From Heliocidaris erythrogramma (lineage: Eukaryota; Echinodermata; Echinoidea; Camarodonta; Echinometridae), in the NCBI GenBank assembly GCA_025617745.1, contig CM046873.1, forward strand, positions 27,789,410 through 27,853,409: a stretch of DNA of 64,000 bases, read 5' to 3'. Below are positions 15,691 through 48,620 of the stretch, piece by piece; positions within the stretch are counted from its first letter, which is position 1, and each line of letters starts with the position of its first letter. A model generated the notes under the pieces. That model saw only the letters and a program-made list of their open reading frames with translations. It was not told the origin of the DNA and did not search any database. The translations under genes were made by a program, and so were the position numbers.

Positions 15691-15848
15691 ATAATAATAA
15701 TAATAATACACTGTATTTAGAAAAAAAAAATCAGCGCACCCTTTCGGCAAAACCGGGGGTGCTTTGGACGAATGGTGGCGTTCCAGGCAACGCGACGTGA
15801 CCCGACGCTCCCAACGCACCCTTTCGGCCAATTCGCTATACGCAATAC

Positions 15849-16580
15849 GCTACCCACCCTTTCGGACTATGCCCGTCATTCTAGCTCCAGGTTTTGTCCT
15901 TTTATTGTCTAAATCCCCAGGTTAGCTAACCTTTCTCCTTCAAGATGCCATCAGGTGCCTGCATCCATTGGTTTAGGCATGTCATGGATTTCTCATCGCG
16001 TCAACGCGACGTGACGCGACGCGACGCTACCCACCCTTTCGGACTATGCCCGTCATTCTAGCTCCAGGTTTTGTCCTTTTATTGTCTAAATCCCCAGGTT
16101 AGCTAACCTTTCTCCTTCAAGATGCCATCAGGTGCCTGCATCCATTGGTTTAGGCATGTCATGGATTTCTCATCCTAGCTCCAGTTTTTGTCATATATTG
16201 TCTAAATCCCCTGATTAGTCAATCATTATTCGTCAAGTTGCCATCGGGTGCCTGCATCATATTGTTTTGGCATGCTATGGATTTTCTCATCCTAATTCCA
16301 GATTTCCAGCGTTTGTCAAATATTGTCTAAATCCCAGATTAGCTAATCATTATTCCTCAAGATGCGATCAGGTACCTGCATCCATTGGTTTAGGCATGTC
16401 ATGGATTTCTCATACTAACTCCAGGTTTTGTCGTTTTATTGTCTAAATCGCCAGATTAGCTAAATATCTTTCTCCTTCAAGATGCCATCCGGTGCCTGCA
16501 TCCATTGGTTTAGACAAATGTGCCAGCTGTCGGTTTGTTAATCCCAATTCTAAATTTTCATCTTCTTTTTTCATCCCCAG
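15849..16580 (+). repeat. Five decayed tandem copies of the cryptochrome exon-1 start region
   Basis: Each copy has a remnant acceptor (TCCCCAG-like), a 25-nt leader ending CTTCAAG or close to it, and the start codon context, then coding sequence for [10 protein letters not shown] before diverging. Start positions are 15945, 16122, 16238 (TTG instead of ATG), 16362 and 16482; the real start is 16607. Spacings are 177, 116, 124, 120 and 125 nt. 15851-15997 and 16028-16174 are identical, so the most upstream duplication is recent. Confidence 0.8.
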
Positions 16581-16606: not shown

Positions 16607-16736
16607 ATGCCATCGGGTGCCTGCATCCACTGGTTCCGGCATGGCCTTCGTCTCCATGACAACCCGGCTCTCCTGGAAGGCATGACCTTAGGCACAGAGT
16701 TCTATCCCATCTTCATCTTTGACAATGAAGTTGCAG
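16607..16736 (+). CDS. cry: cry coding exon 1 (residues 1-44)
   Basis: ATG at 16607 begins [20 protein letters not shown], the conserved family N-terminus. The donor is GCAG then GTAGG (GT at 16737). A pyrimidine tract and CCCCAG ending at 16580 suggest the exon starts at 16581, with 26 nt of 5' UTR and a further upstream non-coding exon not located. Confidence 0.9.
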
Positions 16737-19700
16737 GTAGGTTCCAAGCGATATTCTTTGGTTCTAAAAGGAAAGGGCTTTTTTCTGAGTGAGATTCCTT
16801 CTGGTCCAATCTTTGTTTACTCTTTTTCAAAGCTTTCCTGACTAAAATTCCTTTGTGTTCCCTTATATTTTGTTCACAACATTACAAAGCGTTTCTTCCC
16901 GATGCAAAATTACATTTTGAGCTTCTTTTGACAAGATTGATGCATTAGTTTTGCGGTAAATGACAATAACAGTAAATAATTCTACCTATGAGAAGGTCTC
17001 ATTCACTCTCATTGCAATATGCGAAAAGAAACTATTAAAAGAAAATAAAGGGCAATAAAGGGCAGAAACTACATGGCCTATATTCACAAAGGAGGTTTAA
17101 ACCATGGGTAAGGTTTGAACCTCCATAAGTGTACTATTAAAAATAAGCGTAAATTAGCGCACATTGCCCATGCGCGCGCTCAAAGAAAATATATGATTGG
17201 ATCGGATTCCGTGCGTACGTACGCTTTAATTAAAAACCTCTTTTGTGAATTCGGGCCCATGTGTACATGCACAAGCTACATGGGAAAATTGTTTTTTCAT
17301 GTACATGTAGGCCTTCATACGTAATACATGTAGGTATCGGGCAATAGACCGCTTTGGTAATGTATGCAAATTTTATTCATACTTTTCAAACAAAGGTTGT
17401 TCTTGACAACCTGAAAGCTTGCCGGACATAGCGACAAATAATGTATGCAAACTGGATTCCAAGTATTGAGGCTCATTTATAAAATGCAGGTTCATGGAAT
17501 AGCTTGTCACTAGGTGCTCAGAGAATATATGTGCATAAATTTGTATACATTACAGAAGCGGTCTATTGAACACATTGTAGGTACATGTACCTTTGCCGTT
17601 ATTAAAAAGTATGAACGGAATTAGTATAAAACTTACCATTAACGGTAACTTTGCCATCAATGGTAACTCCCATGGAAACCTTGATTTTCATTGGCTGTTG
17701 AATGATGTTGCCATGGTAGTTACCATTGATAGCAGAGTTACCATTAATGGTAAGTTTTATGCAACGGGCCCCTGGAGCAGCATGTGCAAAGTTTGCACCG
17801 TTATAATGATCATTTTGTTTGAACAGAAGGTAAAAGTTTGAGATCTTTGTAGATCTTTGTAGATCTTTGTAGATCTACATGGACTGTACATGTATCTCTT
17901 ACTTTTAATATACAGGTTTGTATTTCTCAAGTAACTCTGAGAAGAAATGATGTATTGTACAGTACATGATTTACATGTATACATTACTAATACTGTTTGT
18001 CCGAGGTTACATACATGTAGATTTACTGCATGACAATGAAGTATACATCCGGTAAATTTATACTTGATTATATACAATATATCTTTTGCCGTATAGGTAC
18101 AAAGACCTCAGGGTTCAACAGATGGCGCTTCCTGCACGACTGTCTTATGGACCTAGATGATCAGTTGAAGGAAGCTGGTGGAAGACTGTTTGTCTTTCAT
18201 GGTGATCCCTGCCTTATCTTCAAAGAAATGTTCCTTGTGAGTTCACAGTAATCATCAAATAATGTAATTATGACAAATTAATTCAGTTCTGACTCCCTGA
18301 ACAGAACCAGTTGTTTTACCAAATCCTCATCATCCACCAAAGTAGTGTACATACAGGTACTAAATTGGAGTAATGTCTTCAGGCATGCAGGCAATTTCTC
18401 ATTAGATATTTGAATACCTGCTGATTTAGGAATTCCCTTCTGGTGAAGTCCAAAGGTTTTTGGTAATATTGGTTTCCCATCCACTATACAGTACATACAT
18501 GTACATTGTATAATGGAACAATGACCATTGATATCATCACCAGTATCATTTTTTACAATAATTGTTATAAGCTACTGAAAACCTTGAATCTGTTTGGCTG
18601 AGAGCAAATTTGTCATTGTTCAAGTGAACAATTGGGTCCTGCCTCAGATCCAAGCTACATTGTATAGTAGGGCAATCGACTCAAAGCAGTTATCAGGCCC
18701 CCTTTCGTAAAACTTGTTATCAATAGCAACTGCACCATTTCTATGACAAATTTGCTCTCAGCCAATGAGATTCAAGGTTTTCAGTAGCTTATAACAATTG
18801 TTGTAAATTGGTAATAGCAAATTTCCTGAAACGGGGCACAGGAATACTGAAATCTTAGTTTGGAGTTTGTAACATATGGGAGAAAATACTGTGGACTTGC
18901 ACTTTTTCATTTATTGTCGCAATACAGTGCTATTCTTGTAACTTTCAAGTGAACAACGATGAGGGGGCGGTTCCATACTGGGTCATGGAGGTCCAGCCCC
19001 CTCCCCCTCTTTGGGTGCAAATCAACACCCAGAGAAATCAGACAGTTCAATTGTTTTGCTTGTCAGAATTTTTGGGAATTCGACAATTCTCGCTACCTCA
19101 AATATGCAATTTTCGACGTAGAGGGCAATATTATGCATGGAAATGGTCCGCATCTTTGTCAACTTCACTTTCGGTCCGTATTGACATGAGTGCTAAAATT
19201 TTTGGATCGCATGACATAAACCACTCAAATTTTGAAAATGCAACCAATTGTCTCTATAAATCATGGTATCTTAATTTCAAACATGTCGGTTAATTTATAC
19301 TCAAACTCGAGGATTTTTGTAATACTTGTGTACATTTCCAATGCAAAAAGACAAACACTTGTCGACCCAATCGGGATATTGTCATCACTGCGCATGCGTG
19401 GTTTGCATGACAAGCGCCATCTGTTGGCGAAATTGCGTATTTGGGTAGCGAGAATTGATTAGCCGTTTGCAAAATCCTGGAACTGCCCCAGAGCCATGAC
19501 TTGCTTTCTTTTTCCTCTTTCTTTTTTTCAGGAATGGGGTGTCCGCTACTTGACCTTTGAGAGTGACCCTGAGCCAATCTGGACGGAACGAGATCGACGG
19601 GTCAAGGCGCTATGTAAGGAGATGAAGGTAGAGTGCATCGAGAGGGTCTCTCACACCCTCTGGAACCCAGATCTGTGAGTTCAAATTACATGTTTGACAT

Positions 19701-22401
19701 TGTTTAGATTTCAGTTTCAGTGGTTGAATGTGTAATGTTTACACACAGGTCATATTTAAAGCAGATAATTTGAATATAGGATTCAAAATAACCAGATCTG
19801 TTTATAGTTCAAACTTCATGTTGATAATTTACAGTATTTAGAGTTCAATTCAGTGGTTAAAGTTGCAATATTATACAGAAGTAAGGTTTAAGCAGATATT
19901 CTGAATAAAGGATTTCAGCAAAGTGTCCCAAACATGCTAAGCAAAAATAAAGGTTTGCGGCTTGGTCCCATTTAAAAAGCAAATATTTTTCTCATTGAGC
20001 GTCAACTTTTTTGACACATTTTTAGTATTATATATATAGAAAGAGAAGGAAATTAAGTTGTATATGTTGACGTGTGGACAAGAAACAATTCTTAAATTGT
20101 GTATGGGCAGGCTCCTTGGAAGGACTTTGTTTGACCCTGGTCCAAATTTTAGATAGTGAAACAAGGCCTTGCAGTATGGAAGGGATGGGTTTGAGAGGAT
20201 CAAATACATGTAGATCATGGAGGTTTAAAGTATGCATTGATATATTTATTACCCTTGTCCGGTACCATTGTCTAGGAGAATTTACCTAAGTTGTCGGTAC
20301 ACTGGTCTGGGAGAATTTAACCCTTGATCCCCCATGCATGATGTGCATGGGTGTTTGTTTGTTGTTAATGTTCATTGTTGTCTGTCCTCTTCTCCCTTCC
20401 TACTCCTGAACAAAGTATTATCGAGAAAAACGGTGGCACCCCACCTATCACGTACTCCATGTTCATGGAGTGTGTGACGGAGCTCGGACACCCCCCACGC
20501 CCGATGCCCAATCCTATCTTAACGAAAGTCAAGATGAACATCCCGTCAGACTTTGAGGAACGCTTTACCCTTCCAAATCTAGATGTGATAGGTGAGTGTA
20601 TGTTTAGGTTGATAGGCTTATCCATGGTGGTGGTGGTGATGATGATGGTAATGGTAGTGATGAAAGTGTATCCATGGTAATGGTGATGACGGTATTTTGT
20701 GACATTGGTGGTATTTGTAAGAAAAGTGATGCATGCAATGCCAAAATGAATCGATCATGAGCATGATGATGAAAATGATGGTGTAATGCTGGTGATGATT
20801 GTTCAATTATCACCATCATCATTTACTATTATTATCCTCATCATCCTCCTCATCCTCCTCACCCTCCTCATCCTCCTCATCCTCATCCTCCTCTTCCTCC
20901 TCATCTCCTCCTCCTCCTCCTCCTCCTCCTCCTCCTCCTCCTCCTCCTCCTCCTCCTCCTCCTCCTCCTCCTCCTCCTCCTCTCCTCCTCCTCCTCCTCC
21001 TCATCCTCCTCCTCCTCCTCATCCTCCTCCTCCTCCTCATCCTCCTCAACATCCTCATCCTCCTCAACATCCTCCTCATCCTCATCCTCATCAACATCCT
21101 CCTCATCCTCATCCTCATCAACATCCTCATCCTCATCAACATCCTCATCCTCATCCTCCTCCTCATCCTCATCCTCCTCATAATCTCCTCATCCTCCTCC
21201 TCCTCATCCTCCTCATCCTCCTCCTCATCCCCTCCTCATCCCCTCCTCCTCATCCCCCTCCTCATCCCCTCCTCCTCATCCCCCTCCTCATCCCCCTCCT
21301 CATCCCCCTCCTCATCCCCCTCCTCATCCCCCTCCTCATCCCCCTCCTCCTTATCCTCCTCCTCATCCTCGTACTCATCCTCATCCTCCTCCTCATCCTC
21401 ATTCTCCTCATCCTCATCCTCATCCTCCTCATCTCCTCCTCATCCTTCTCATCTCCTCCTCATCCTCCTTCTCATCTCCTCCTCCTCATCCTCCTCCTCA
21501 TCCTCCTCCTCCTCATCCTCCTCCTCATCTCCTCCTCCTCATCCTCCTCCTCATCATCCTCATCCTCATCCTCATCCTCATCCTCCTCCTCCTCATGACA
21601 ACTTATCCATGGTGGTGGTGGTGATGATGATGGTAATGGTAGTGATGAAAGTGTATCCATGGTAATGGTGATGACGGTATTTTGTGACATTGGTGGTATT
21701 TGCAAGAAAAGTGATGCATGCAATGCCAAAATGAGTCGATCATGAGCATGATGATGATAATGATGGTGTATTGCTGGTGATGATTGTTCTATTATCCCCA
21801 TCATCATCATTTACTATTATTATCCTCATCATCCTCCTCATCCTCCTCATCCTCCTCCTCATCCTCCTCATCCTCCTCCTCTTCCTCCTCCTCCTCCTCC
21901 TCCTCCTCCTCCTCCTCCTCCTCCTCCTCAACATCATCATCATCACCCTCATCCTCATCATTATCATCATCATCTTCATCTTCATCATCTTCATCATCCT
22001 CATCCTCCTCATGACAATGTTAACGGTGAGATTTGTGATGATGGTGATATATACATGTAGTATGTATCATTGACATGGGTAATGAAATTTATTGCTAATA
22101 ATGATGGTGATAGTGATGGTGATGGTAATGGTGGAGGTGGTATTCCTAGTAATATAAGTGATGGTAGTAGTGATGATAGTGACGGTGATCTTATGATTTA
22201 CTCATGGTGCTTACTCGGTCTCTGTATGATCACCGGTTGTACTGTAATCCTTGTTCTGTTTATCCGCCTCCTCTCTCTCTCTCTTTCTCTCTCTTTCTCC
22301 GTCTCTCACATGCACGGACACACACTCACATGTTGTCTCTGATTATGTTTTTCACGTACTCTCTTTCTCCCTTTCTCCCTTTCTTTATGTATGTTTGTCT
22401 G

Positions 22402-22445
<44 letters not shown>

Positions 22446-25400
22446 GCTCTTCATGTCTATTCAGACTAATTTCTACCCTCCCTTTCTCTCTCCTTTGTAC
22501 CCTCTCTCTCACCCCCCCCCCCCCTCTTTCCCTCTCTCCCCCTCTCTCTCATTATCACCCCCATACACACAGGAGTGCCCATGGAGTGTAAGGAGCAAGA
22601 CAAGAAGATGTGGAAAGGGGGCGAGACCCGCGCCTTGGAACTCTTCCGGGTCAGGATCCTTCACGAGGAAGAGGTAAGCATGGTAGTGCTGGGACTAAAA
22701 ACCGGGTACCCGAGTCCCGCCCGAGAGCATCGGGTCCCGGGTCAAAATATTACATGCCCGTTTCCCGAAAATAAGTATTTTAATGATTACTCATCGTCGA
22801 CCAGCCATTAAATGAAAAATCCATGTAGCGCCCCACTGCAGTGATGCGCTTTGGATTCGTTCAACTTACTATAACATTCGTTATACACAGACAGCAAAGC
22901 CCACAGCCGCGATTCAGAGACTGCATGCTCATTGGTTCATCGAACCCATAACATAATTTGCATTTGAATGCCCTTCCCCCTTATTGTGAGTAAACAATAT
23001 GTCGTAGTCATCAGCGATCAACGGGCGTAAAGTTTACAAACTCATCCATATTCAACATCAACCGTCGCTCCATACTCGGATTACTCGCACGTGGCATCTC
23101 ATCATGAATACGACTTGTACATGTAGCGCCCCACTGCAGTGATGCGCTTTCGATTCGTTCAACTTACTATAACACATAACCCTTAAACCTTACACATTCG
23201 TATACACAGACAGCAAAGCCCACAGCCGCGATTCAGAGACTGCATGCTCATTGGTTCATCGAACCCATAATATAATTTGCATTTGAATGCCTTTCCCCCT
23301 TATTTGGAGTAAACAATATGTCGTAGTCATGAGCGATCAACGGGCGTAAAGCTTACAAACTCATCCATATTCAACATCAACCGTCGCTCCATACTCGCAC
23401 GCGGCATCTCATTCATGAATATGACTCGTACATGAACAGATGTATGAACATCAACAAGATTAAGCGCGAGCACGATTTGGCACTGTCACAATTCCTGAAA
23501 CTTTAGCACACAATTAATAAATTCGAAATTACTAAAATCAGATTATATCCATGGCGATATATCCAAAATAATATCCTTCATTCATGCGAAAGTGAAAAAC
23601 AAGGCATGGGAAGCAAAGGCTGTCTAGAGTGCGCACGATCAAGAATTTCATTCATAAAATTGGGCTTGTGACCTCATTTGATGACCACAAGTCATGACAT
23701 GTGCAAAATATGCCAACCAGCCAATGAAGGTTTGCGCCTTTTTTCCTCCCCGTTCCTTTGATCCTTAATTCACACCGCCGCGGCATTGGGCGCGAAGGCG
23801 CTTCGTATAAACAGATCGAATATCAAAGGGGAACCGCATGTGCGTAAAAGGATGAAGTTACGGTCGGGCAGGGATGAAGTGGTTGGCTTGATATTTTTTG
23901 ATATTTTTTTATGATGATGATACTTGTTTTCACGATAATGATTATCAACATGATAATGATGATGATGATGTCTTTGATGATGATTATGATGACGATCATC
24001 ATGAATCATGATTATATGATAATTATGTTATGATGATAATATGATGGTTATGAAGATCATGCTGATGACAGAAAACACATACCAGCTCTTCTTTGTTTTG
24101 CATTTAGTCCTTTGAAAGAACGTCTTTATTTACATGTACAACGAAAATGTCATAATGAAAAGTTACCTGTTGACTACTTGACTGTTGAGAAGACATCTAT
24201 GCATGTTTCCTTTGTTTCATTTATTAATTATTGTCTCCGATCTCCATCACGTGGGGGAAGGGGTGGGGCCGTAACGTTGAGGGACGGGTTATAACTTATA
24301 AGGGTTATATCACTATTGTCTAAACGCTAATACACTAGGCCCACGCATTTTTTTTAAATTCAGGCAAAGCAGTTTAAGAACCCTTTCTTTAAAATAAACC
24401 CTGTCATTTATGAGAGAGAGAGTGAGAGAGAGAGTCAGTCAGAAAGAAATGATTACCCCCCCCCCCCCCCCCCCCCCAAAAAAGGAAAAAATATAAAAAT
24501 CTTGTTTTCAGTTTTCGTTTATGAACTTGCACTTTCTAAATTCTAAATAAAAGAAGCATGATCTGATGAGCGTGTCTGTGTGTATACGAAGAGAAATCGG
24601 ACTAGCATACATTTACGAATATCAGTAGACTGTGGTACATGAAGTGTGTGTATGTGTGTGTGTGAATTTCAATAATTGACGCCTCGCGATGAGTTCTTTG
24701 AGAAGGAAACTATCGTTGATCGTGCGTGGGGAATTACAATGTGTACACGTATGAGGACTGTGTAGTAGAGAAAGCTCGCCATTTTCGTCAGGGACATCAA
24801 TTGATACTACGCGTGAAGTTTGTCTACAAGTGCCTCTTGCTCTCTTTACGATCAGATGTCAAAATTCCCAAGGGCTGCTCGTGTAAAATTATAAAGAATC
24901 ATCATGATCATCGTCTCAAACAAGTTTTTCTTTGAGATTTCATTGTATTTCCCTTCCTTTCAAGTTCATGTGTGTATTTTTGGATAAACATGTGCAAGGG
25001 ACTGTTGACCGTTATTTACCTAAGGCTAAGGCGCTGGCATGATTATTATCGATGATTTCTATGGATTAAATTTAGGAGGCTTAGGCCTAATATCATGTCT
25101 TGCGCCCACGATTTTCCCAGTCTCTTTTTTTCCCTTGAATTGTTTATTTCAGGTGCCAAACACGAAGGAGTTTTTCCCAGTGTTAATAGCTTCTTAGGGG
25201 TAAATATAAGCTTGTAATTTGTGTTAGATGATTTTCGGGTAACCGGGAACCCGCCCGAAAAATCGTCGGGTTCCCGATTTGAAAAAATACCCGAAACTCC
25301 CACCCCTAAAGCATGGATAAAGTCGAGTTCTGGTCATGAGATTGAATTGTGAAAGAAACTGTCTCAAAGCAACTGGGAAAGGTTGATTATAGCACATAAG

Positions 25401-28400
25401 AATTGGTGTATGCTGTAAGGTTTTTTGAATCACCAAAATGATAAGAAAATTGACTTAATCCTGCTGAGAGTCACATGCACTGCACACAGAAATGTGTATA
25501 TGGGACTACACACAAATGTTCCACCCGAACATTTCAGCCGTTTCTTGTCATATTTTGAATGTGAGGGCATTTGAAGAGCAATGTTTCAGGGGACATATCT
25601 ACTATGATAGTCTTCCATACTAAAACATAGAAAGAATGAGAAAGCTCACAAATTATATTTTACCTTTCCCGGAACTCAAGCTTCCTTTTAAGGCATGGAG
25701 TTACAATTAGACTTCTGTGTAAGCCTGGAGTGATTCAGATGCAGTCTGAATTGCCTTCTGTTTATGTGTTTTCCAGGCTTTCAAAGGAGGTTATTGTCTG
25801 CCAAACCAGTATATGCCAGACCTGTTGGGCACACCAAAGAGCTTGAGCGCCTACCTGCGTTTCGGGTGCCTCTCTGTGAGGAAATTCTACTGGCAGATAC
25901 ATGACACATACTCGGAGGTAAGACTCTCTCTCTCTCTCTCTCCCTCTCATTTAATGTAAAAGGTAATCTTGACTTCTAATAATAACAATGATAAGATTTA
26001 TTTATATAGCGCAGCTACTATTTGAATACTACGCTTTCATGTAGACTCCTAAATGTTTACACTATATAAGCAGTACTATTCTACTTAAAAGCCTTGGAGA
26101 ACAGGTGGGGCTTCAATCAGGATTTAAAAATGGGGACCGATGGTGCTTTCCTTTTTACAAGAGGAAGTTGGTTCCAGAGTTTCAGAGCAGCACAGCTAAA
26201 TGCAGTTTCCAAGAGTTCTGATAATGATGCAAAATAAAAATCTTTCAAAATCCAACCAAATTTTAATAGACTGAATCTGCCGAAGGATTGTCGTAGAAAA
26301 ATGCATAATACTGTAAACGTGGAAATTTTCACGCAATTAATTTTTTCGCGCTCCACCAAGTAAGGTGAATTTCACGTGTTTTTAATTTCACCGACGCACT
26401 AGGCTCATGGGCATCTTCTCGCGCAAATACCATGCCGTGCGAAATGTGCGGAAATGTCCACGGCGCGAAATATTCCATGTTTACAACAGCAGAGTAATGA
26501 GCTAAAACAGATGTAGATATCGAGCGATTCGCTCAAATTAAAGGAACGTGTATAAGTCGTCTGGTCCTAAATAATTATGTGTATTGTATGTTTTATTTAC
26601 TGCAATAAATCATATATACCTACCTATTATGCCTGTAGTCTTGACTACGGGACCCCTTCGAGAATTTAACACACATGAGTCACAATATTGTGCGCACCCC
26701 CGTAATCCTATTGTCCCCTTCGCCACTCACGCGCGTCAACACGCTACGGCCATCTTCCTCTTTCTTGCTCGCCCCCGACGAGATAGGACGTATAGTCACA
26801 GCGCTCCTGAAATCAGGTCGTATAGTATCTTTTAGGTGCGCTTTTTCGCACATTTAAAGCACTTTTAGGTACCTATATTCGCTTAGATTATAGTACTGTG
26901 TGTTTTAGTAGTCACTTTTGCCGATTGCAAGGGATTTTTGATATCCTTTTCTTGGCATTTATTTTTCCCTTTCACGGTCAGCCCCACGTAGATATTTCTG
27001 TGTGTTTGCGGGTGTTTCCGTTTGTCACCGAGCCTTTGGGTTCGGTGTTTGTTCTTACGGTTTTTTGGCTGTGAAAATCTTTTGTGCGTATCTCCCAAAT
27101 AAATTTTACTCTTATTTTACTGCATTCAGTTGAAGTATTTCTTATTTCGAAAAGTATACTTTATTGTCTGTTTTATTGCAGTGGTATGAATTCGGACACG
27201 GAGACCTGCTTCTTCCGAAGAGTCGTCTAGCAAGACGACTCGGCCTTCCAGAACTCTCCCGAGTACTTCGGTACATGGGGGAGGGAGGAGGGCTAAGGGT
27301 AAGTTGCCTAGTGGTGTTTCCTTGCAGAGTTTGCCAGTCTCGGAGCTTGCGGCTTCGGGACGGGTGGCGTTAACTGAGTCTGGATTGTCAACTCCGAAGC
27401 CCGTGGTTTCGGGGTGGGTGGCGTCAGATTCTAGTGGTTTGGATATCTCGAATCCAATCCCCCGGTCGTCAAGACCAGAGGGGGGGGGGGCGGTTGTTTC
27501 CCGTACGGTAGCGTTCACTCGCTCTGATCTGTTAGGGGAGACGCGCCCCACTACTGCAGGGCAACCCACGGGCTTTGTCCATGTTGGTCTGGGTTCTCAA
27601 ACCCTAGCCCCCGGCAAACGCCAATGGGGGAACGAGTACTTCCTGGGCTGTCTACATTGCCAGCTAATGGGAATGCTCGAGCTAACAATTATGGACGCTC
27701 TTCGGAGCAACAGGTGTTTTCACCTGAGTGCGTGACTACTAGTGCTCCCCTATTGCCGCTCTCTAGCGGTCCAATAGCGGGTTCACACGCCTTTAGTAGT
27801 CATTGGGCACATACCGAGTCATCTCGGTCTGCCCCCGCACTGGGTGCTTTTAGCTCCCAACCCATGGCTACTGCATCTTTTTGCTTAGCCAATATGGGTG
27901 ATTTGGGCGATTCTTTGGGCTTACGCCATGAGCGCTCTAATCCCTTTAAGGGAAGTGAACGTCCCTCCGCGGAGGGTTCGGTTCGTGTTTCCGAAGCGGC
28001 TTCGGAGATCCGAACGAATCTGATTAAGCGTTCTAAGAAAAGGGTTTCGGCTACGACTCTTGTCGAGCCAGCCAAGAAAAAGGCCAAGAAGAAGGCAAAA
28101 AGTGGCAAGGCTTTGCCGGCCTCTTGCCCGTCTGGCCTGGCTAACCCAGCTAGCTCCTCTCAAGCTGACATGTTCAGCATGATGCGGGCTTTTGCTCAGA
28201 ATCAGGGTTGGTCCTTTGTACCGGCTACTTCAACCCTGACTTCTGTCCCTATTCAGGGGTCTGACTTTGAGACTAATCAGCCTTTTGTGATTGATTCGTC
28301 TTTGTCCGAGTCGGATTCGCATGTGCCTCCTATTCCCGCGGCCCTTGGGGCGCCGCCGGGCGAGGAGACTTTTGTTGAACCATGCGGGGCTCTGCCTGCT

Positions 28401-31400
28401 GAGTCCTTTGTTGGCGTTCCTTTGCCGGGTCATCCCGGTCCGCCCTTGCACTGGGCGCCTTGGCGCCCGGCCCATGGCTGTTGCATCTTCTTGCTCAGCC
28501 GATATGGGTAATTGGTGCGCGTCTTTGGGTTCAATACCCTCAGCGCACTTCTCCCATAAAGGAGGTGAGCGTCCCTCAGCGGAGGGTTCGGTTCGTGTTC
28601 CCGAAGGGCTTCGGGGATCCGAACGAAACCGAATAAACGCTCTGAAAAGCGGGTTTCGACTTAGGCTCTTTTTGGGCCAATCAGAAGCCTAGGGAAGGGG
28701 CTAAAAGAGGCAAGGCTTTGCCTGCCTCTTGCCCATCGGGTTTAGCTAACCCTCCGGTCTCTCAAGCTGAGATGTTCGGTGTGAGATGGGCTTTGCCCAG
28801 ACTCAGGGTTGGTCCCTTGTACCAGGCATCACATCCCCTGCTTTTGTCCCTTTTTTGGGTCGGACATCGAGACTAATTAGCCTTTTATGGTTTATTCTTC
28901 TTTGTCTGTGACGGGATCACATGCGCCTCCTATTCTCGCAGCCTCGGGGCTCGGTCGGGTGAGGAGGCTTATGGCGGTTCATGCGTGAATCCGACTGTTT
29001 CGGCCTTTGTTCGTGATCCTTTGTCACGATCATTTCAGGCGGAACCAGTTTTGGAAGCGGCCTCTCAAGCTTCGGTTTCCGAATCGCTGGGGCAGGCAGA
29101 GCCTTAGTCGCTCTCCCTTTGTGGGGTAGAAGCGATTGCTTTGTTCTAAACTTTCCCTGACTTTCAGTCAGCCCGCGCGCAGGGTTCGACTTTGCTTGGG
29201 TTCAGGCAGCGGGATTCCTCCGAGGGTATTTCTCTTGCGGAGGATTTCAAGCTGGATTATGGACGCATTGAAGCGGCGCTTCTTTTAAGCGTCATGTTTG
29301 GTTTGCAGTGGTCATAGTTTTCCACTGCAGCTGCCTCGGTCATGTACCGTCGCAGAGTCTTGGTTCTTACGGCCCTTTGGGTTAAGGAGTCGGACATCGC
29401 ACTGCTTCTCTCGGATGTTCCGTCTCGGGTCCTTTGCTTTTGGCGATGCGCGATAACAGGTCTCTGTCTTGTTTACATGCTCATCCTAAGTCGATGCGAG
29501 CCTCTGTCCGCGTCTTGGTTGGTGGCTGTCTTCGTTCCTTTCTCCCCGCTTGGGAGGCCATCTCCGGGGACGCTTTTGTTCTCTTTGACGGACGAGACGG
29601 ATTCTTCATAGATCTGTCCGCCCCGCTCCCCGGAGGGGCTATAGGAACTCGGTCACCTCACAGGCCCTAGCTCGTTCTCGTGCCTCATCAGAGATTGAAT
29701 CTCTGTTGAAAAAGTGGGCTATAGAAAGGGTAAGAGACTGGCTGTCTTTTTCCCTTTCTCCGACTTTTGTTATTCCCAAGCGCTCGGGAAAACTTCAGTA
29801 CATTTTCGGATGGAGACTCTCGCCTCCATTCTCCCGTTGATCAAGAGGAAGGACTACGCGGTCTTGATAGTTTTCGAAGATGCGTATTTCCACTTTCCCA
29901 TTCATCGCGCTTCGCGCGATCTTCTGGGGTTTTCCTTCCTCTCAGAGACTTATCGCTTTCGCACTCTTCCCTTCGGGCTGCGCCCAGTCCCTCGGGTTTT
30001 TACTCAGGTTGTAGCCGTGCTGGCAGCCTCTCTGAGGCGACGCGGCCTTCGGCTATTTTTGCTACCTGGACGATTGGCTTCTCCTAGCGGAGTCGCGCGA
30101 TTGTTTGTTGGACGAGACTCGTTTGCTCGTCAATCTTACTCAAGACTTGGGTTTCCTAATATTTTGGGAAAAGTCAGAGTTAGTTCCTACTTGCAGCCCA
30201 GTTTTTCTGGGGGCTGTGTTGGACATTTGGAATCAGTTGGCTCGGCCCAGTCGAGACAGGTTTCTCACCATTGTCTCGGCAGCTCGCAAGCTCATGCTGG
30301 CCAGAAAGGTTCTTGCGCGAGGCAAGTCCTTCCGTACCCCCCCCCCCCCTTCCGTTGATCTCGGTTTCGACGGACGCCTCTCGGTTGGGGTGGGGAGGAC
30401 ATTGCAATGGCAGCGCGGTCGCGGGGGATTGGTCTCATCTTGGGACTCTTCCCCATATTTAATGTCCTGGAGTTTATGGCAGTTCTTTTAACCCTGCTTC
30501 ATTTCAGAAGTCGACTTTTCAGTCGTTCAGTTCTGATCCTCACGGACAATGTCACTGTGGCGGCTTATGTCAATCTGCAGGGAAGCACTCGTTCTGCTAT
30601 CCTGAATGCCCTAGCAGCACACCCGTGGCCTCTTTCTTCCCCGGTCTGGAAAACCTCATTGCGGATTTTCTGTCTCGGGGCAGGTGTCTTCCATCGGAAT
30701 GGATGCTCCATCCAGAGGTCTTTCGCCGCATTTGCAGTTACCTGGATCCACTGGAAGTGGATCTTTTTGCGTCGGTTCTAAACCACCTACTTCCGATATA
30801 TTGCTCCTGTGCGCGCGATTGGGGAGCTTGGGCTCTCAATGCTTTCTCTCTCAGTTGGGAGAATCTTCGAGGATTTGCCTTTCCTCCCTTCCAGCTGATT
30901 CCGCGAGTCTTGCGGAAGATCAGGGAAGATCGGGCTCGGGTGCTTGTGATAGCTCCCTTTTGGCCCAGGAGGAGTTGGTTCCGGAGCTAATGAGCCTTCT
31001 GGCGGCTCAACCGTTCCTTCTTCCGTTAAGAGTGGATCTGGTGTTGCAGCCCCTCTTGGGGATTCTTCACCACAATCCAGAATCCCTTCATCTGACTGCT
31101 TGGCCCTTGTCGGGGAATCTGCAAGACAGTCGGGTCTCTGTGATAGTGCCGCAGAATTTTTATTGTCCAGTCGTAGAGTTTCTACTAGGGAGATTTATAA
31201 TTCCCGTCTTTCGGTCTTTTTCCTTTGGCGTAAAGAGCGAAATCAAACCCCTTATCGGCTCCTATTGGTTCAATTGCGGATTTTCTAATCTCGCTATTTG
31301 ACAAAGGGAGATCCATCTCTACTATCCGAGGCTACCGTTCGGAACGATCGGGGCCATTCATTCGGGTTTCTCAGATGGTTCGGGGATTTCCAATTCCCCG

Positions 31401-34400
31401 CTGTTAAGTGGTGTGATTCGGTCGTTCTTTTTGAAGCGACCTCCTTGTTCTAGGTTAGTGCCGTCTTGGAGTCTGCCTAAGGTCCTGGAGGCCTTGGCGA
31501 AACCTCTTTTCGAACCGTTAGGTGAAGCTCGCTTCATCATCTTACGGTTAAGACGCTCTTTTTGGTAGCTTTTGCCTCTGGGCAGAGGCGCAGTACTCTT
31601 CATGCTCTCTGCCTTACTCCTGGTCATGTTCGCTGGGAGAGAAAAGGCGTTAGATTGATTCCTAAGGCTTCTTTTATTGCCGAGAGCTGCCTCTGGCCCT
31701 GTTGAGATTTTTCTTTGTCTGCTTTCTGGGTTTTCGTCAGTGCGCGAGGACAAAGTTTGGTGTCCTGTTAGGGCTCTCAATTGGTATATTGATAAGACTA
31801 AGTCTTATCGTAAGGATGATCAGTTGTTCCTGATCACTAGAGAGCCTTTTTCTCCTGCTTCTCTTGATTCCATTTCTAGATGGATTGTCGAGGCTTTTAG
31901 GGCTGCTGGCACAGGGGCTCTTTTTTTCCGACAGTAAGCCTCGTGCTCATGACACTCGTAGTGTCAGCACTTCTTGGGCTCTGTTTCAAGGTGTGGCGCT
32001 TGATGATATTTTGAAGGCTGCTTATTGGCGTTCGCCCAATTCCTTCATTTCTTGCTACCTTAGGGATGTTCCCGCAGGTGAGGCTATGTTTGCGTCAGCC
32101 ACCTTGAAGGCCGCTGTGTCTTTGTTTTCTTCGCTGTAATCCTATTCCCTTCTGCTTGAAACATGCCTCCCGGTCTTTGAGTTGGCGCTGGTCTGGCATA
32201 ATAGGTAGGTATATATGATTTATTGCAGTAAATTTGTAAAATCAGCACTGATTTTCTTATTTACTATATAAATCTATATACCTACCTATGACCCTCCCTC
32301 CTTCCCCTCACCTTGCAAGCAACATGTTTCTAGTTGGGATTGCTCGCAAAAGAGGAAGATGGCCGTAGCGTGTTGACGCGCGTGAGTGGCGAAGGGGACA
32401 ATAGGATTACGGGGGGTGCGCACAATATTGTGACTCATTTGTGTTAAATTCTCGAAGGGGTCCCGTAGTCAAGACTACAGGCATAATAGGTAGGTATATA
32501 GATTTATATAGTAAATAAGAAAATCAGTGCTGATTTTACAAGTTTCAGTGATGTGGTTTTAATCAAAAATGTTTGCATGTTGGTTTTATTTATGTATTTA
32601 TTTTTTTGTAGTTTAATGCCATCACAATCGCCTTAGGTCTGGAATTTCAAAAACTGTTACTAGTAATCCATTTGCTGCTCCTGTACAACCAGAGAAAAAG
32701 AATCCAGATCGGCTACTCGTCAGTAGCCGGGCATGTGGCTGGTATGGCTGCACTACATGTATGTTTCGCAGCTGATCGGTCCTTCTCGGTCCCGAGGTCC
32801 CGAAGCCTCACAACAGCCTGCTATTTCAATGTTGGTCATAGAGCAATGTGGGACCTATTTTGTTGTGTATGATACCAACCACATCTAAGAGTTTAGTCAA
32901 TCTTATCAATTTCCGAGCCCTACTGGAGCTTCGATCAGCCCAAATTTTCAAAATCGAGTTTGAGTGAAGGGTTTGTGGTAGCCTTCTATACATTTGAATA
33001 ACGACCGTATCTATTGAATCCGTTAACTCCCAGCTGAAGAACGAGGTATCGCCATCCCATCTGACTGCCCAGCTGATCTGGAGGGAGTACTTCTACACCA
33101 TGTCCGTTGGCAACATCCACTTCAACAAGATGAAAGAGAACCCCATCTGTCTTAACATAGAATGGAAGAAAGATGATGAGAAACTTGAAGCGTGGACGGA
33201 GGTAAGCTTTGGGGCTGGGAGTGAGGAAGTTTACATAACAGGAGTTGCAATGTAAATGTGTGTGTGAGGGAACATTACAGATTATCTGGGGGTAACATTT
33301 TCTGCACCATAATGGTTGGTAGCAACAAGATGAAAGAGAACCCCATCTGTCTTAACATAGAATGGGAGAAAGATGATGAGGAACTTGAAGCGTGGACGGA
33401 GGTAAGCTTTGGGGCTGGGAGTGAGGAAGTTTACATAACAGGAGTTGCAATGTAAATGTGTGTGAGGGAACATTACGGATTATCTGGGGGTAACATTTTC
33501 TGCACCATAATGGTTGGTAGCATCAACTTCAACAAGATGAAAAAGAACCCCATCTGTCTTAACATAGAATGGGAGAAAGATGATGAGGAACTTGAAGCGT
33601 GGACGGAGGTAAGCTTTGGGGCCGGGAGTGAGGAAGTTTACATAACAGGAGTTGCAATGTAAATGTGTGTGAGGGAACATTATGGATTATCTGGGGAAAC
33701 ATTTCTGCACCATAATGGTTGGTAGCATCAACTTCAACAAGATGAAAGAGAACCCCATCTGTCTTAACATAGAATGGGAGAAAGATGATGAGAAACTTGA
33801 AGCATGGACAGAGGTAAGCTTTGGGGCTGGACGTGAGGAAGTTTACATATAGACAGCAGTTGCAATGTAAATGTGTGTGAGGGAACATTACGGATTATCT
33901 GGGTGTAACATTTTCTGCACCATAATGGTTGGTAGCAACAAGATGAAAGAGAACCCCATCTGTCTTAACATAGAATGGAAGAAAGATGATGAGAAACTTG
34001 AAGCGTGGACGGAGGTAAGCTTTGGGGCCGGGAGTGAGGAAGTTTACATAACAGGAGTTGCAATGTAAATGTTTATGAGGGAACATTACGGATTATCTGG
34101 GGGTAACATTTCTGCACCATAATGGTTGGTAGCAACAACTTCAACAAGATGAAAAAGAACCCCATCTGTCTTAACATAGAATGGAAGAAAGATGATGAGG
34201 AACTTGAAGCGTGGACGGAGGTAAGATTTGGGGGCTGGGAGTGTGTAGGATTACAGGGGATGCAATTTGGCATCAGCAATGGGTCAGGGAGCTTGACCCC
34301 TTACCTACGGGAACTGAGTGGTTATCAGTAGGCAATGGATTAAAGGAACATCCTCTTTTACAAGACGAAAGCGAACCCCACTTGTCTCAATATTAAGTGG

Positions 34401-37400
34401 GAAAAGAAACTTGGAATTATGGATAGAGGTTAGTTTTCGGGCTGGGAGTGAGGAATAGGGGTTGCAATGTAAAGGTGCATGAGGGGGGCAGAATATTTCT
34501 CTGCCACGTGGGCTGGCATTGGGGAATTTTAAAGGGGGTACAACTTCTGGGAAATTAAGAACCTTAACAAATGATCTTGAGGGAATATTTCTGTATCATG
34601 TCTGTTTGCATCATCCACTTCAAAGCAAATTATTCTATCTACATGTAATGTGTATTGCTTTGCTCTACCCAATTATAGGAATGGATTTCAATTAGGGTGC
34701 GAATGTAGATATAATGGTTCTGAATAAGCATGTGCATGTAAATATGTGACTAGCTATGATGCTTCTGTCCCTGATTGGACGATATTAAGTGTGAAATTTT
34801 GATTAGATTTACTCAAAAGTGTTAGTGATTCATGTATACTATCAAGGGCTTTGGTCAGAAGTGATTGGAAAAGCGCCTTATGAAAAACATTTCTTATCAT
34901 TGTAGGGTCAGACTGGATATCCATGGATTGATGCATGCATGAAACAACTCAAGTTTGAAGGGTGGATCCATCAGGTCGGGAGGCATGCCACGGCTTGTTT
35001 CCTCACTCGTGGAGATCTCTGGATCAGTTGGGAAGATGGACTAGAGGTATATGAAACTTTGGTTTGGTGTGATTTCATTTGATTTTGATTTTGAATATAT
35101 TATAGGGCAACTTCCACCCCACCAACTACCCTGTAATAGAAGAATTACTTAATACTGAGGACAACTTCCCTCTACTGTGACACCAGCCCCTGTATAAGTA
35201 CCTACTAGGATAGCTACATGTACCTCCCTGATATATACTCCCAAGGAATATTAACCCTTGTACAAACTGTCCTAGAACCCTACCAGAAGACAATCCACAT
35301 GACAAGTACATGTATCCCTGCACAAATTCATATGCAGTATAGCGTTTGTTTATATAAAGAGTCCTTATTTTTGTTCAGCAAACCTTGCAGCTCTATTTTG
35401 ATCAAATATTTTTCCATATGATCTCTCCGTGGATCAGGTCTTTGACAAGTACCTCCTGGATGCTGACTGGAGTATCTGTGCTGGAAACTGGATGTGGATC
35501 TCCAGCTCTGCCTTTGAGAAGTTCCTCCAGTGCCCCAACTGCTTCTGTCCAGTCCGCTATGGCCGCAGGATGGACCCAACCGGCGAATATGTCAGGTTTG
35601 TCCCATATCTAGTTGTGCTTCTTCCTGGGGCAAAATCCTCAAGGGTGTGAAGCCTTTGCTTGAATTATCAAATTAATTCAAATATACATGTACATGTATG
35701 TGGTCTTTGAAGGATATCTGCTACACCTAAACCCAACAGGCCAGAATATTTGGGTGATCGTACAGTTTGGGTAATGGTAGATTAACAACAAATGGGATCC
35801 AGGGTTTTGCTATGAATAAGAACATGAAGTTTGATATCTGTATGTACATCTCTAGCAGTTTTTGAATAATCTATATTTATTTTTTCATACATTTGCACAT
35901 GCAAATTCTGCATTGCGTATTGGGAAATGCCTGTTTGCCCCCGAGCATTGTTTCAGTGTGGACACTACGTGAAAAGATTCATATGCCAGGTGTCATGAGC
36001 TAAAATCAAACAAATATGATATTTTGGGGAACTTACCAAAACTAAAAAGGGGCTTTAACCATTGGAATGAAAACTAAAATTTTACCAACTAAACTTCAGT
36101 TATGATGATGCTCAGTAAAGTTTGTTAATGAATGTTTGGTTTGTGATCGGTTTTTCAGGAGATACCTTCCAGTGTTGAAGGACATGCCAATCCGATACCT
36201 CTTTGAACCGTGGAAGGCACCAAGGGCGGTGCAGGAAAGAGCAAAATGCATCGTTGGAAAGGACTACCCAATGCCTATTGTGGAACACAAGTCAGCGTCT
36301 GCCGCCAACCACGAACAGATGGAAAAGGTTATCAACAGGCTCAGAGACTCAGGTAAGAACCATGAGCGAAAGATCATAATCATAGACACATGCAGATAGA
36401 TACATCTACATGTAGGTATTAGTTGATAAATAGAGAGATAGAACTGGAAACCGAGGCAATGAAAGTGAGTCGATGTCTGCAGCGAACCGTGAACAGATGG
36501 AAAAAGTTTTCAACATGCTCAGAGACTCTGGTGAGAACTGTTAGAGGAAAGGATATCAGATATAGATAGATACATGTAGATAGATAGATTCATACATACT
36601 GTAGATAGAGAGAGAGAGGGAGAGAAGAGAGAGAGAGTGAGATAACTAGAGAACTAGAGACTGTGGTAAAGAGAGTGAGATGTAGTTAATGTTTGCAGCC
36701 AAACATGAACAGAGATGGACAGGGTCAGACACTCAGTTGAGAACTGTGAGAGGAAAGTAAATCAGAGATAGATGGATGGATGGACTGATGGATACAAGGA
36801 TGAATAGATTCATACATGTAGATGAATGGATAGATAGATAATACATGTAAATGTAGGTAGATAGAGGGATGGATGGACTGATAGATGGAAGGATGAATAG
36901 ATTCATAGATGAATGGATAGATAATACATTTACATGTAGGTAGATAGAGGGATGGATGGACTGATAGATGGAAGGATGAATAGATTCATAGATGAATGGA
37001 TAGATAATACATGTACATGTAGGTAGATAGAGGGATGGATGGACTGATAGATGGAAGGATGAATAGATTCATAGATGAATGGATAGATAATACATTTACA
37101 TGTAGGTAGATAGATAGAGGGATGGATGAACTGATAGATAGAAGGATGAATAGATACATAGATGAATGAATAGATAAGGCATGTACATGGATATGTTGGT
37201 AGATAGATGGATGAATAGATTCATACATGTAGATGAATGAATAGATAGATAATACATGTACATGTAGGTAGATAGATAGAGGGATGGATGAACTGATAGA
37301 TAGAAGGATGAATAAATACATAGATGAATGAATAGATAAGGCATGTACATGGATATGTTGGTAGATAGATGGATGAATGGATGGATAGTGAGATAATATA

Positions 37401-42315: not shown

Positions 42316-44040
42316 GCAGAGAAAGGTATTGGAATGGGTATATAAGCTGAGAAAAAAGACATGCAATAAATAAACAGTGTGCGAATTCGACTCAAAACAC
42401 ACAAAAAAAACATTGTAGCCTATGCTAGCCTGTTTACCAGTTCACATTAACTTTAGTATGGCCTAAAGTAATTTTTGTTGTGCTTTCTATTCATCCGTTA
42501 TGCCCTTGCTTGTCGGGAACATGGTCAATAGTGGTAGAATAATAATATTAAAGTTAAAATACAATCTATTTCTATAGGATAATGATGATATCATTATATC
42601 TCACAATCGCCAATAAACTTTTGCAATTTATAAAAAATATCATTTGTGTTGAAAAGCGCCTATACTGTGCAAATTAAGAGGTCCAAAGTTCGTCGGCGAT
42701 AAGTGGAGCGAATTAGGCCCCAAAATGTAATTCACGATACACTATGCAATAACAGAGTTATGATTGTGATCGACTATGACGAATTCTCACCATTGATTAT
42801 TTTTTATCAAACTCTAATCTAGTACACAGTTGGACAGATACAACAGGCCGTGTATTTTATCATTTGAGAATGAACCAGGAAGCAATAGACACAAAATAAT
42901 CTAATGAAGTGGTCTCTACGGCGATAAATCAACTTGGTATAGCCGGTTTCATTGCAGTGACTGTGGATTTATGATCGACATGTGATATTCACCTAGTAGG
43001 ATTATTAACCATTCGTGTATACTAACTGTTTTCTTTCATTTGCTAGAATTTCAAAAGTTGCATCCATGGCCGAAAAGCAGGAAGAAGAGGAAGTTCCGAG
43101 CTCTTTAGAAGGCTTGACGTGTCCACTATGTCTTGATATCTTCGACGATGCAACCCTCCTGACCTCTTGCGGACACACCTTTTGTCGGAAATGTCTCAAG
43201 AAATACGACCTATCCCATCAGGATCTTGACCACATGGTCTGCCCTCTCTGTAGGAAAGTCACAAAGTTGTCAGCCAACCGCGTCGATGATCTCCTATCTA
43301 ATGTGACGGTCAATGGGCTCGTAGACAACTACCACGAAAAATGTGGAGGAGCCAATGCCATTCTGGAGATGCGACAGAAATGTAATGTCTGTACAGTGCA
43401 GGGGGAAGCTGTCTCTTATTGCAGTACCTGTAACGCATTTTTATGTGGAGAATGCTTACTTTCTCATAAACGGCAAACGCTATTCTTTGCAGGTCATGGG
43501 ATCATATCCATACAGGACATCACGGAAGGGAAGGTCAGCACCGGTCATTCCTCAGAGAAGTGCTCCATCCATAAACAGGAGAACAAAGATATGTTCTGCG
43601 AGGATTGTAAGGTGCACGTCTGTTTCAAGTGCGTGATCATCGGTCATCGTGATCACAAGATAACGTCACATGAGGACTTCGAGAAGGAATTACTGGTTAA
43701 GGTTAGTCGCCAACATAACATATTGTTTTAGTCTTACCATACGTCATTCAAGTATGTTAATCCTAAACAAACAGCAGATTTGCATATTATATGTTTTCAT
43801 ATGATCTGAGATGTGATAACTAAAAATATTCACACACACTTTATCATGAACGTTTTTACTGTTTAAAATGGTAGGGTGAATAATCCACGGTGTAATGAAA
43901 TGGGTGAAGAACGTGATATGAATTCTTGTGATACTAATGATTATTTAAGTTACGACCTAAGCAGTATCATCAATGTCGTTCGCAGGATTTAAACCAAATA
44001 TAACTAGAACTCCTTTGATATTGGTAACAGGAAATGTATA

Positions 44041-45204: not shown

Positions 45205-45330
45205 TAGAGTTTCATTCAATCTTTGAACATTAAAAATTTTTAATTTGTAAACAAATCTTTCGGCATATTACTCCCAGTGTTAAAGATCGTATGCTCGATC
45301 TATAATGAAAAACACAAGTCAGAAAAAATT

Positions 45331-45403
45331 GGAACCAGCGGGATTCGAACCTGTCATCTACTGCTTGCCGGGCAGCGACTTAACCACCAGGCTATTCTGG
45401 TTC
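45331..45403 (-). tRNA. tRNA-like unit 1 (degenerate)
   Basis: 73 nt with perfectly pairing ends GAACCAG/CTGGTTC, an A-box-like TAGCCTGGTGG, a consensus B-box GGTTCGAATCC and a T6 run just downstream. Loop CCGGCAA sits on a GCTGC/GCAGT stem (anticodon would be GGC), but position 33 is C and the T- and D-stems pair poorly, so it is probably not a working tRNA. Confidence 0.4.
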
Positions 45404-45620
45404 ACGGCCAAGTCACGACGAACTAGAATCAAATACCCAAGATCCTCTTCTTTCTGACTCATTAATATTCAAACGGTCCGCCGTGGAACAATGGTTAGTA
45501 AACGAAGAAGCTTGACTGGGGAGGAATTTTTAATTTGTAAACAAATCTTTCAGCATATTACTCCCAGTGTTAAAGATCGTATGCTCGATCTATAATGAAA
45601 AACACAAGTCAGAAAAAATT

Positions 45621-45693
45621 GGAACCAGCGGGATTCGAACCTGTCATCTACTGCTTGCCGGGCAGCGACTTAACCACCAGGCTATTCTGGTTC
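45621..45693 (-). tRNA. tRNA-like unit 2 (degenerate)
   Basis: Identical in design to unit 1, 290 nt away, same strand. Confidence 0.4.
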
Positions 45694-45969
45694 ACGGCCA
45701 AGTCACGACGAACTAGAATCAAATACCCAAGATCCTTTTCTTTCTGACTCATTAATATTCAAACGGTCCGCCGTGGAACAATGGTTTTTTAATTTGTAAA
45801 CAAATCTGGGAGTAATATGCCGAAAGATTTGTTTACAAATTAAAAATTCCTCCCCAGTCAAGCTTCTTCGTTTACTAACCATTGTTCCACGGCGGACCGT
45901 TTGAATATTAATGAGTCAGAAAGAAGAGGATCTTGGGTATTTGATTCTAGTTCGTCGTGACTTGGCCGT

Positions 45970-46042
45970 GAACCAGAATAGCCTGGTGGTTAAGTCGCTG
46001 CCCGGCAAGCAGTAGATGACAGGTTCGAATCCCGCTGGTTCC
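45970..46042 (+). tRNA. tRNA-like unit 3 (degenerate)
   Basis: First plus-strand unit after the inversion point; T6 follows at about 46045. Confidence 0.4.
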
Positions 46043-46260
46043 AATTTTTTCTGACTTGTGTTTTTTCATTATAGATCGAGCATACGATCTTTAACACTGG
46101 GAGTAATATGCCGAAAGATTTGTTTACAAATTAAAAATTCCTCCCCAGTCAAGCTTCTTCGTTTACTAACCATTGTTCCACGGCGGACCGTTTGAATATT
46201 AATGAGTCAGAAAGAAGAGGATCTTGGGTATTTGATTCTAGTTCGTCGTGACTTGGCCGT

Positions 46261-46333
46261 GAACCAGAATAGCCTGGTGGTTAAGTCGCTGCCCGGCAAG
46301 CAGTAGATGACAGGTTCGAATCCCGCTGGTTCC
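46261..46333 (+). tRNA. tRNA-like unit 4 (degenerate)
   Basis: Same 73-nt sequence as unit 3. Confidence 0.4.
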
Positions 46334-46550
46334 AATTTTTTCTGACTTGTGTTTTTCATTATAGATCGAGCATACGATCTTTAACACTGGGAGTAATATG
46401 CCGAAAGATTTGTTTACAAATTAAAAATTCCTCCCCAGTCAAGCTTCTTCGTTTACTAACCATTGTTCCACGGCGGACCGTTTGAATATTAATGAGTCAG
46501 AAAGAAGAGGATCTTGGGTATTTGATTCTAGTTCGTCGTGACTTGGCCGT

Positions 46551-46623
46551 GAACCAGAATAGCCTGGTGGTTAAGTCGCTGCCCGGCAAGCAGTAGATGA
46601 CAGGTTCGAATCCCGCTGGTTCC
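46551..46623 (+). tRNA. tRNA-like unit 5 (degenerate)
   Basis: Same 73-nt sequence as unit 4. Confidence 0.4.
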
Positions 46624-46840
46624 AATTTTTTCTGACTTGTGTTTTTCATTATAGATCGAGCATACGATCTTTAACACTGGGAGTAATATGCCGAAAGATT
46701 TGTTTACAAATTAAAAATTCCTCCCCAGTCAAGCTTCTTCGTTTACTAACCATTGTTCCACGGCGGACCGTTTGAATATTAATGAGTCAGAAAGAAGAGG
46801 ATCTTGGGTATTTGATTCTAGTTCGTCGTGACTTGGCCGT

Positions 46841-46913
46841 GAACCAGAATAGCCTGGTGGTTAAGTCGCTGCCCGGCAAGCAGTAGATGACAGGTTCGAA
46901 TCCCGCTGGTTCC
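46841..46913 (+). tRNA. tRNA-like unit 6 (degenerate)
   Basis: Same 73-nt sequence as unit 5. Confidence 0.4.
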
Positions 46914-47130
46914 AATTTTTTCTGACTTGTGTTTTTCATTATAGATCGAGCATACGATCTTTAACACTGGGAGTAATATGCCGAAAGATTTGTTTACAAA
47001 TTAAAAATTCCTCCCCAGTCAAGCTTCTTCGTTTACTAACCATTGTTCCACGGCGGACCGTTTGAATATTAATGAGTCAGAAAGAAGAGGATCTTGGGTA
47101 TTTGATTCTAGTTCGTCGTGACTTGGCCGT

Positions 47131-47202
47131 GAACCAGAATAGCCTGGTGGTTAAGTCGCTGCCCGGCAAGCAGTAGATACAGGTTCGAATCCCGCTGGTT
47201 CC
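47131..47202 (+). tRNA. tRNA-like unit 7 (1-nt deletion)
   Basis: Like unit 6 but one base shorter before the B-box (GTAGATACAGG). Confidence 0.38.
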
Positions 47203-48620
47203 AATTTTTTCTGACTTGTGTTTTTCATTATAGATCGAGCATACGATCTTTAACACTGGGAGTAATATGCCGAAAGATTTGTTTACAAATTAAAAATTCC
47301 TCCCCAGTCAAGCTTCTTCGTTTATTAAAAATTTTGTTTTTGAAAAAAAAAATCTATTTTTCAGGTAAATGATCTTGTCCAACGTTGTACAGCCAAGAAA
47401 TCAGAACTGGAGAAGAACATACAGAATGTGGAGTCACAGCGTAGTAAACTACACACTGCCATACAGAAACTACGGGAAGATGTCAGCCAAGCCTATCGTA
47501 CCAAGGCCAAGCAACTAGACGAAAATCAACGTATACTCGTTGAGCAAATGGATGCTCTAGAGCGTAGTTTCGATGACGATCTCAACGCTCTGAAATCAAA
47601 CGACCGCCAGAAGATTAAAAGCATTTGTAGTTCGATGGATTTGGTTGCCAATGACAGACTGGGTGGTCTTGAGACAGACAGCCTGTCTGCTCATAAGTTG
47701 CTCTGTGAGGAGCTGGAGGGCATGCTAAAGGAGGTTACCGATCACACATCTGCAGCAGCCATAACTAAGAAAGCACAGAAGAAGAGATTCCAGCCTGCAG
47801 ATGATACTTGTCTTGATCTCGGGAACATCATAGAACCAGATCCAGAGTTGAAAGTAATTCAATGTGTAGATCTACGTGGAGGAATGAGTGGGATGACCAA
47901 ATACTCTGATGACAGTGTGGCTATTGGATATAGCAGTGCAGCTGGTATAGATTTGATTCAAATGGTAAACAGCAGCAGTATGCAAACATACCAAGCGGTA
48001 CCTCGGATTATGGTCTTGTGTTTCAAAGAGATAAGACGCTATGTGTATCGACGGGTACCACTGAAGCACATATCAATTCTCCAAATGGATCCAGGAAATC
48101 AACCATCCATGTGAGCAGTAATGGATATAATCTTATATTAAGCAGAAGTCCATCATATGAAATTCTCGATACAAACTCTTCAAGCCACGTCTACATCTAT
48201 GACCCGACGGGAAGCACACTCAAACACACAGTCACAACAAAACACAACATCACAAGCCAGGCATATGCAACCAAGGCGGGTTTGATCATCACAAGTTCAT
48301 GTCATTTCAATCCAAGCATAGTGACGGTCTATGACAGGGATGGGAATGCTGGGAAGCCTCTTCAAGCTCCACGTGGTGTCTACCTGTATGCTACCGTGGA
48401 CGAGCAGGACAGGGTGTATGTAGCGAATGTTGATTGTAGGAACAGTAACGTGGTGATCAGGCTCTATGACCTTGATGGTCTGAACCTGAAGGAGAGATTT
48501 CAGTTCAATGCACTGAACCTGAACCCGATTTTTATCACGTGTTACCTGGTTTCCCTCTCTCCAGAATTACTAGCTTATGCTTTTGGGAATAAACTATATT
48601 TCATTAAAGTGGTGACGTAA

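Follow-up and report, generated by a model that had tools for sequence, protein, structure and literature searches.

The last 78 nt of a working cryptochrome exon, together with its 5' splice site, recur in five good copies within the intron that follows, with two degenerate copies besides. At a probability of about 0.8, we suggest that these copies form a minisatellite-like array seeded on the exon–intron boundary and reflect neutral local duplication rather than a splicing switch. The window analysed here is the whole stretch of DNA, 64,000 nt (64 kb) long.

The cryptochrome gene and the array in intron 7

The gene occupies the forward (+) strand, where ten exons joined by GT-AG introns (16607–36352) yield 497 codons free of stops; the model runs from the first exon bearing an ATG to exon 10, short of the gene's 3' end. 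Its protein contains DNA_photolyase (PF00875, 140.2 bits) and FAD_binding_7 (PF03441, 234.2 bits), both exceeding the cut-off. With both domains and an open coding model, the gene is an animal cryptochrome. The top match in a PDB search with the model protein was 8p4x ('putative light-receptive cryptochrome', 687 bits), which we take to be Platynereis L-Cry, followed by 4jzy (532.1 bits), 9dc0 (526.5 bits) and then other cryptochromes. A place among the light-receptive cryptochromes, as opposed to CRY1/2 or the 6-4 photolyases, is a possibility raised by the PDB scores of 8p4x and 4jzy. Within intron 6, a retroelement-like stretch was found at 27190–32136; two frames were scanned, one giving a sub-threshold RVT_1 match (22.3 bits, cut-off 29.6) and the other no match.

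The exon that heads the array is the seventh coding exon of the ten-exon model, as the initial annotation had labelled it; it was located partly by tblastn with a human CRY1 sequence. The tryptophan of its ICLNIEW motif had been equated with Drosophila W342. It pairs with the Trp in a Drosophila fragment and corresponds to residue 342 of the 4gu5 chain, presumably Drosophila CRY (the Trp is residue 9 of the fragment, which starts at chain residue 334 in the full-length alignment).

Taking the end of working exon 7 as unit 1, we found the donor-like junctions (Table 1) to be spaced by 200, 207, 205, 201, 206 and 208 nt. TRF reports the array with a score of 1893 (reporting threshold 50), a period of 207, 5.6 copies and 91% matches. 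The units stand head to tail and are alike in length and sequence, so that the array is minisatellite-like. The last 78 nt of units 1–6 are 93.6–100% identical, and the unit 5 core is identical to the working exon at 78 of 78 positions. Each of the two degenerate copies beats 300/300 shuffles. Alignment, shuffles and TRF therefore recover what the initial annotation had described: five good and two degenerate partial exon copies in tandem after exon 7, repeated every 200–208 nt, the good ones with intact donors. Its view that the array is recent or homogenised agrees with the core identity of units 1–6 and with the mosaic variants described below.

Table 1. Features of the cryptochrome gene and of the intron 7 array (window coordinates)
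Feature	Position	Strand	Details
Exon 1 partial copies	15913–15981, 16090–16158, 16206–16274, 16333–16398, 16473–16510
Working exon 7	33034..33201	+	168 nt, phase 0 at both ends; gene model, tblastn, PDB matches
Unit 1	33124..33323	+	last 78 nt of exon 7, donor GAG/GTAAGC (last exon base 33201, the exon itself), 122 nt of intron
In-frame TAA	33253..33255	+	reached when the exon 7 acceptor joins any duplicate donor
Unit 2	33324..33530	+	core 33324–33401, last exon base 33401, donor GAG/GTAAGC; candidate in-core acceptor, first base 33361
Unit 3	33531..33735	+	core 33531–33608, last exon base 33608, donor GAG/GTAAGC; candidate in-core acceptor, first base 33568
Unit 4	33736..33936	+	core 33736–33813, last exon base 33813, donor GAG/GTAAGC; candidate in-core acceptor, first base 33773
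Unit 5	33937..34142	+	core 33937–34014, last exon base 34014, donor GAG/GTAAGC; candidate in-core acceptor, first base 33974
Unit 6	34143..34350	+	core 34143–34220, last exon base 34220, donor GAG/GTAAGA; candidate in-core acceptor, first base 34180; old, diverged past about 34243
Degenerate copy	34347..34428	+	last exon base 34428, donor GAG/GTTAGT; deletions and a 1-nt insertion versus exon 7
Degenerate copy of exon 7 33074–33125	34572..34623	+	83% identical
Exon 8, modelled splice partner of exon 7	34906..35046	+	gene model

For most units, homology to exon 7 begins at about 33070–33076, the part ahead of the 78-nt core having decayed. Since the matches begin there, the duplicated segment seemingly started inside the exon and did not include the acceptor. 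We tested six pre-core segments for similarity to the 5' part of exon 7. Those before units 2, 3, 4 and 6 beat 300/300 shuffles and the one before unit 5 matches more weakly (7/300 shuffles reach its score), while the segment before degenerate copy 34347–34428 shows no match to this part of the exon (257/300). In the 48 nt before unit 6, one synonymous and nine non-synonymous codon changes separate the copy from exon 7, one of the latter being a stop. The ratios of silent to changed codons between the old copies and the exon (3/5 and 4/6) are a pattern that might arise if one of the two lineages was constrained and the other free. Past its donor, unit 6 differs from units 1–5 at 52–55 of about 120 sites in an intron part that is hard to align, yet its core is 94–99% identical. 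Identity drops sharply at about 33117–33123 and again near 34243, where close similarity stops and the TRF array also ends.

Splice sites of the copies and their predicted products

Splice sites were scored with untrained matrices, and percentiles are relative to the AGs or GTs of the window. Duplicate donors score 10.83, the same as the authentic one (unit 6, 10.11), and the good-copy donors stand at the 99.5th–99.7th percentile among window GTs. The boundary AG preceding each good copy scores 0.36, which is background (66th percentile of window AGs). An AG inside each good-copy core scores 4.31 (89th percentile) and would yield a 41-nt exon; it belongs to the exon 7 sequence and so recurs in each copy, exon 7 itself having it at 33161, and about one in nine window AGs scores as high. 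For exons 7, 8 and 9 the modelled acceptors reach 6.19, 7.44 and 5.90, and an AG at 34679, outside the copies, scores 5.51. The modelled exon 8 donor scores just 4.43, and genuine sites may therefore have modest scores.

We found that joining the exon 7 acceptor to a duplicate donor runs into the same TAA in 6/6 cases. The stop falls on codon 74 of the exon thus extended, before exon 8 is reached, and a role of the duplicate donors as alternative 5' splice sites that yield a coding product was rejected. Mutually exclusive or cassette exon duplication was likewise rejected: the boundary AG is at background, and the good copies, taken as 79- or 88-nt cassettes, shift the frame and introduce a stop in 5/5 cases. 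The 41-nt mini-exons, combined from one to five at a time, lead to a stop in 31/31 combinations. Productive alternative exons are thus ruled out among the modelled combinations. Because all modelled alternatives stop, no coding variant is predicted among them, only loss of productive message.

The copies themselves show no significant signal of selection in units 1–5, either in core versus intron variability or in codon changes. Variable sites number 5/78 in the core and 10/118 in the intron part (Fisher test, P = 0.79), with mean pairwise differences of 2.4/78 and 4.4/~120 (ten pairs, averaged by hand). Core differences comprise three non-synonymous changes, all K/E, and two synonymous ones; given 56 non-synonymous to 22 synonymous possible core transitions, at least two silent changes are expected with P = 0.43, which fits no selection. 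No indel falls in the 78-nt core versus five events, counted by eye, in the intron part (P = 0.09); this non-significant difference is the lone hint of constraint and would leave room for weak constraint. In this light, the initial annotation stands where it describes partial exon copies with intact donors behind one real acceptor, recent or homogenised. Its proposal of a competing, functional splice choice is not supported, given the stops in every modelled extension, cassette and mini-exon set and the lack of a significant selection signal. We conclude that splicing effects of the array are probably small.

Origin of the array and alternative readings

The variants of the units are mosaic. 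In a four-gamete test on 13 informative columns, 30/78 column pairs fail; eight of these columns form one small indel region (columns 210–218) and are not independent, and without them 7/10 pairs fail, including 2/3 inside the core. Core sites 43 and 58 occur in all four combinations among the units. Under the neutral-duplication reading, a segment starting within exon 7 at about 33070–33076 and reaching 75 nt into intron 7, to about 33276, would have been tandemly duplicated without the acceptor, limits that follow from where the homology of the copies starts. The old copies would then have decayed to what is now seen as decayed homology at 34347–34428 and 34572–34623. Later re-amplification and homogenisation, presumably by unequal crossing over or conversion, would have taken the 3' half of exon 7 and its donor as the first unit; the two drops in identity and the mosaic variants point to re-amplification in which the end of the working exon serves as unit 1. 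In what we regard as the most economical reading, the exchange involves this 3' half of the exon too. The duplicate donors probably stay silent, since the 168-nt exon would be defined by the exon 7 acceptor together with the donor closest to it, its own. Occasional use of a duplicate donor would give messages that are truncated, given the stops, and probably degraded.

We consider it unlikely that the copies act as decoys, with strong extra donors, and maybe the in-core acceptors, binding parts of the spliceosome, cutting intron 7 splicing and so tuning the level of cryptochrome as OGT decoy exons do. PMC12017769 describes decoy exons on which splicing factors assemble and which favour intron retention; the array donors match the authentic one, the in-core AG reaches the 89th percentile, and every modelled product is non-productive, as with poison or decoy exons. 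However, the in-core AG is mere exon 7 sequence with equals at about one in nine window AGs, the acceptors of exons 7, 8 and 9 and the AG at 34679 all outscore it, selection on the copies is not significant, and the matrices were not trained. Quite unlikely, in our view, is a conversion reservoir, with the array as the pool from which exon 7 takes its 3' half and with the K/E variants at three positions as heritable protein variants. The identity of unit 5 to the exon core, the four combinations of sites 43 and 58 and the fact that all three amino-acid differences are K/E, one of them immediately following the W342-equivalent Trp, are in its favour. But the data indicate exchange among copies, and exchange into the exon would be consistent with them; selection cannot be shown from as few as three changes, and these positions also vary between the cryptochrome model, 8p4x and CRY1.

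An array whose length or copy number was made in assembly appears most improbable: 33259–33498 and 33872–34111 are 97% identical, but substitutions and indels separate the units, decayed copies follow and the array is just about 1.1 kb long. Very unlikely, too, is a combined reading, in which exon 7 contributes its 3' half as unit 1 of a living array, with repeated exchange between this half and the intronic copies, an array that would supply charge variants beside the outer electron-transfer Trp and, through donor copy number, set the productive mRNA fraction. If the array is ordinary, it shows clearly how local duplication multiplies exon ends and donors, which may stay harmless because no good acceptor was copied. 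If instead it alters splicing or exchanges with the working exon, it would offer a natural experiment on competition between donors, a single acceptor being followed by five that are identical and a sixth that is nearly so, and a source of heritable light-sensor variation.

We compared the array with known systems. As in the Drosophila cases of PMC2891723, local tandem duplication across or beside an exon–intron boundary multiplies splice signals within a gene. The difference is that the duplicated segment here has a donor without an acceptor and its copies lie inside an intron that already exists, so that neither an intron nor a coding exon is predicted to arise. Intron gain by tandem duplication would call for a duplication that provides both the GT and the AG for an intron that is new and in use; in the array the GT is strong, and the AG preceding each good copy scores at background. 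The cryptochrome array has more copies than the case from potato; for fission yeasts, PMC4974935 mentions multi-copy cases of 24 bp. The array resembles decoy exons in retained introns (OGT, ARGLU1 and SF3B1; PMC12017769) in being intronic exon-like sequence whose inclusion leads to a premature stop. For those decoy exons the same text gives evidence of 3' and 5' splice site use and calls the OGT 5' sites weak, whereas the array sequence shows strong donors and poor acceptors. It is also like intronic minisatellites or VNTRs as generally known, with head-to-tail units of 200–208 nt, homogenised, and decayed outer copies, but its first unit overlaps a coding exon and donor. No description of the array was found among the matches listed in open PMC papers (titles and abstract starts), and passages of a paper on sea urchin immune genes (PMC5103432) had no bearing on it that we could find.

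Other local duplications in the window

Two arrays with a 290-nt period, each with 99% matches, lie at 45235–47328 between reading frames of a TRIM-like gene; by eye, their consensus units are mutual reverse complements. A weak tRNA match occurs at 47133–47200 (21.2 bits, under the Rfam gathering score of 29), and no non-coding RNA was found in the window by Rfam at gathering score, nor any tRNA by ARAGORN. Three tandem reading frames (43009–43731, 53403–54377 and 62876–63604) are very similar by eye. The frame at 43009–43731 has Pfam RING and B-box matches; a companion frame at 55302–56624 has no Pfam match.

Local duplication is dense, with 17 clusters in the window, nine of them around the gene. 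We therefore looked for association of exons with the nine clusters between 14500 and 38500 by circular shifts of the exon map. Four of ten exons (1, 3, 7 and 10) touch local duplications versus a random mean of 3.82 (62% of shifts reach 4), and 4/9 clusters touch an exon versus 3.52 at random (P = 0.50). Special targeting of exons by duplication, striking at first, was rejected, because with duplication this dense, random placement gives the same overlap.

Five partial copies of exon 1 lie upstream of it (region 15847–16513, 79–95% identity; Table 1), four of the five with an acceptor-like CAG and four with a start codon. The first two, mutually identical where compared, carry four silent changes relative to exon 1 in 12 codons and none that alters an amino acid; the remaining three have 4, 2 and 1 changed codons. 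The exon 3 duplication involves the donor and only about 4 exon nt. The end of exon 10 and its donor are duplicated once downstream, at 36468–36607 (region 36290–36607), with five silent and four amino-acid codon changes over 20 codons; this copy is possibly an alternative or a dead exon.
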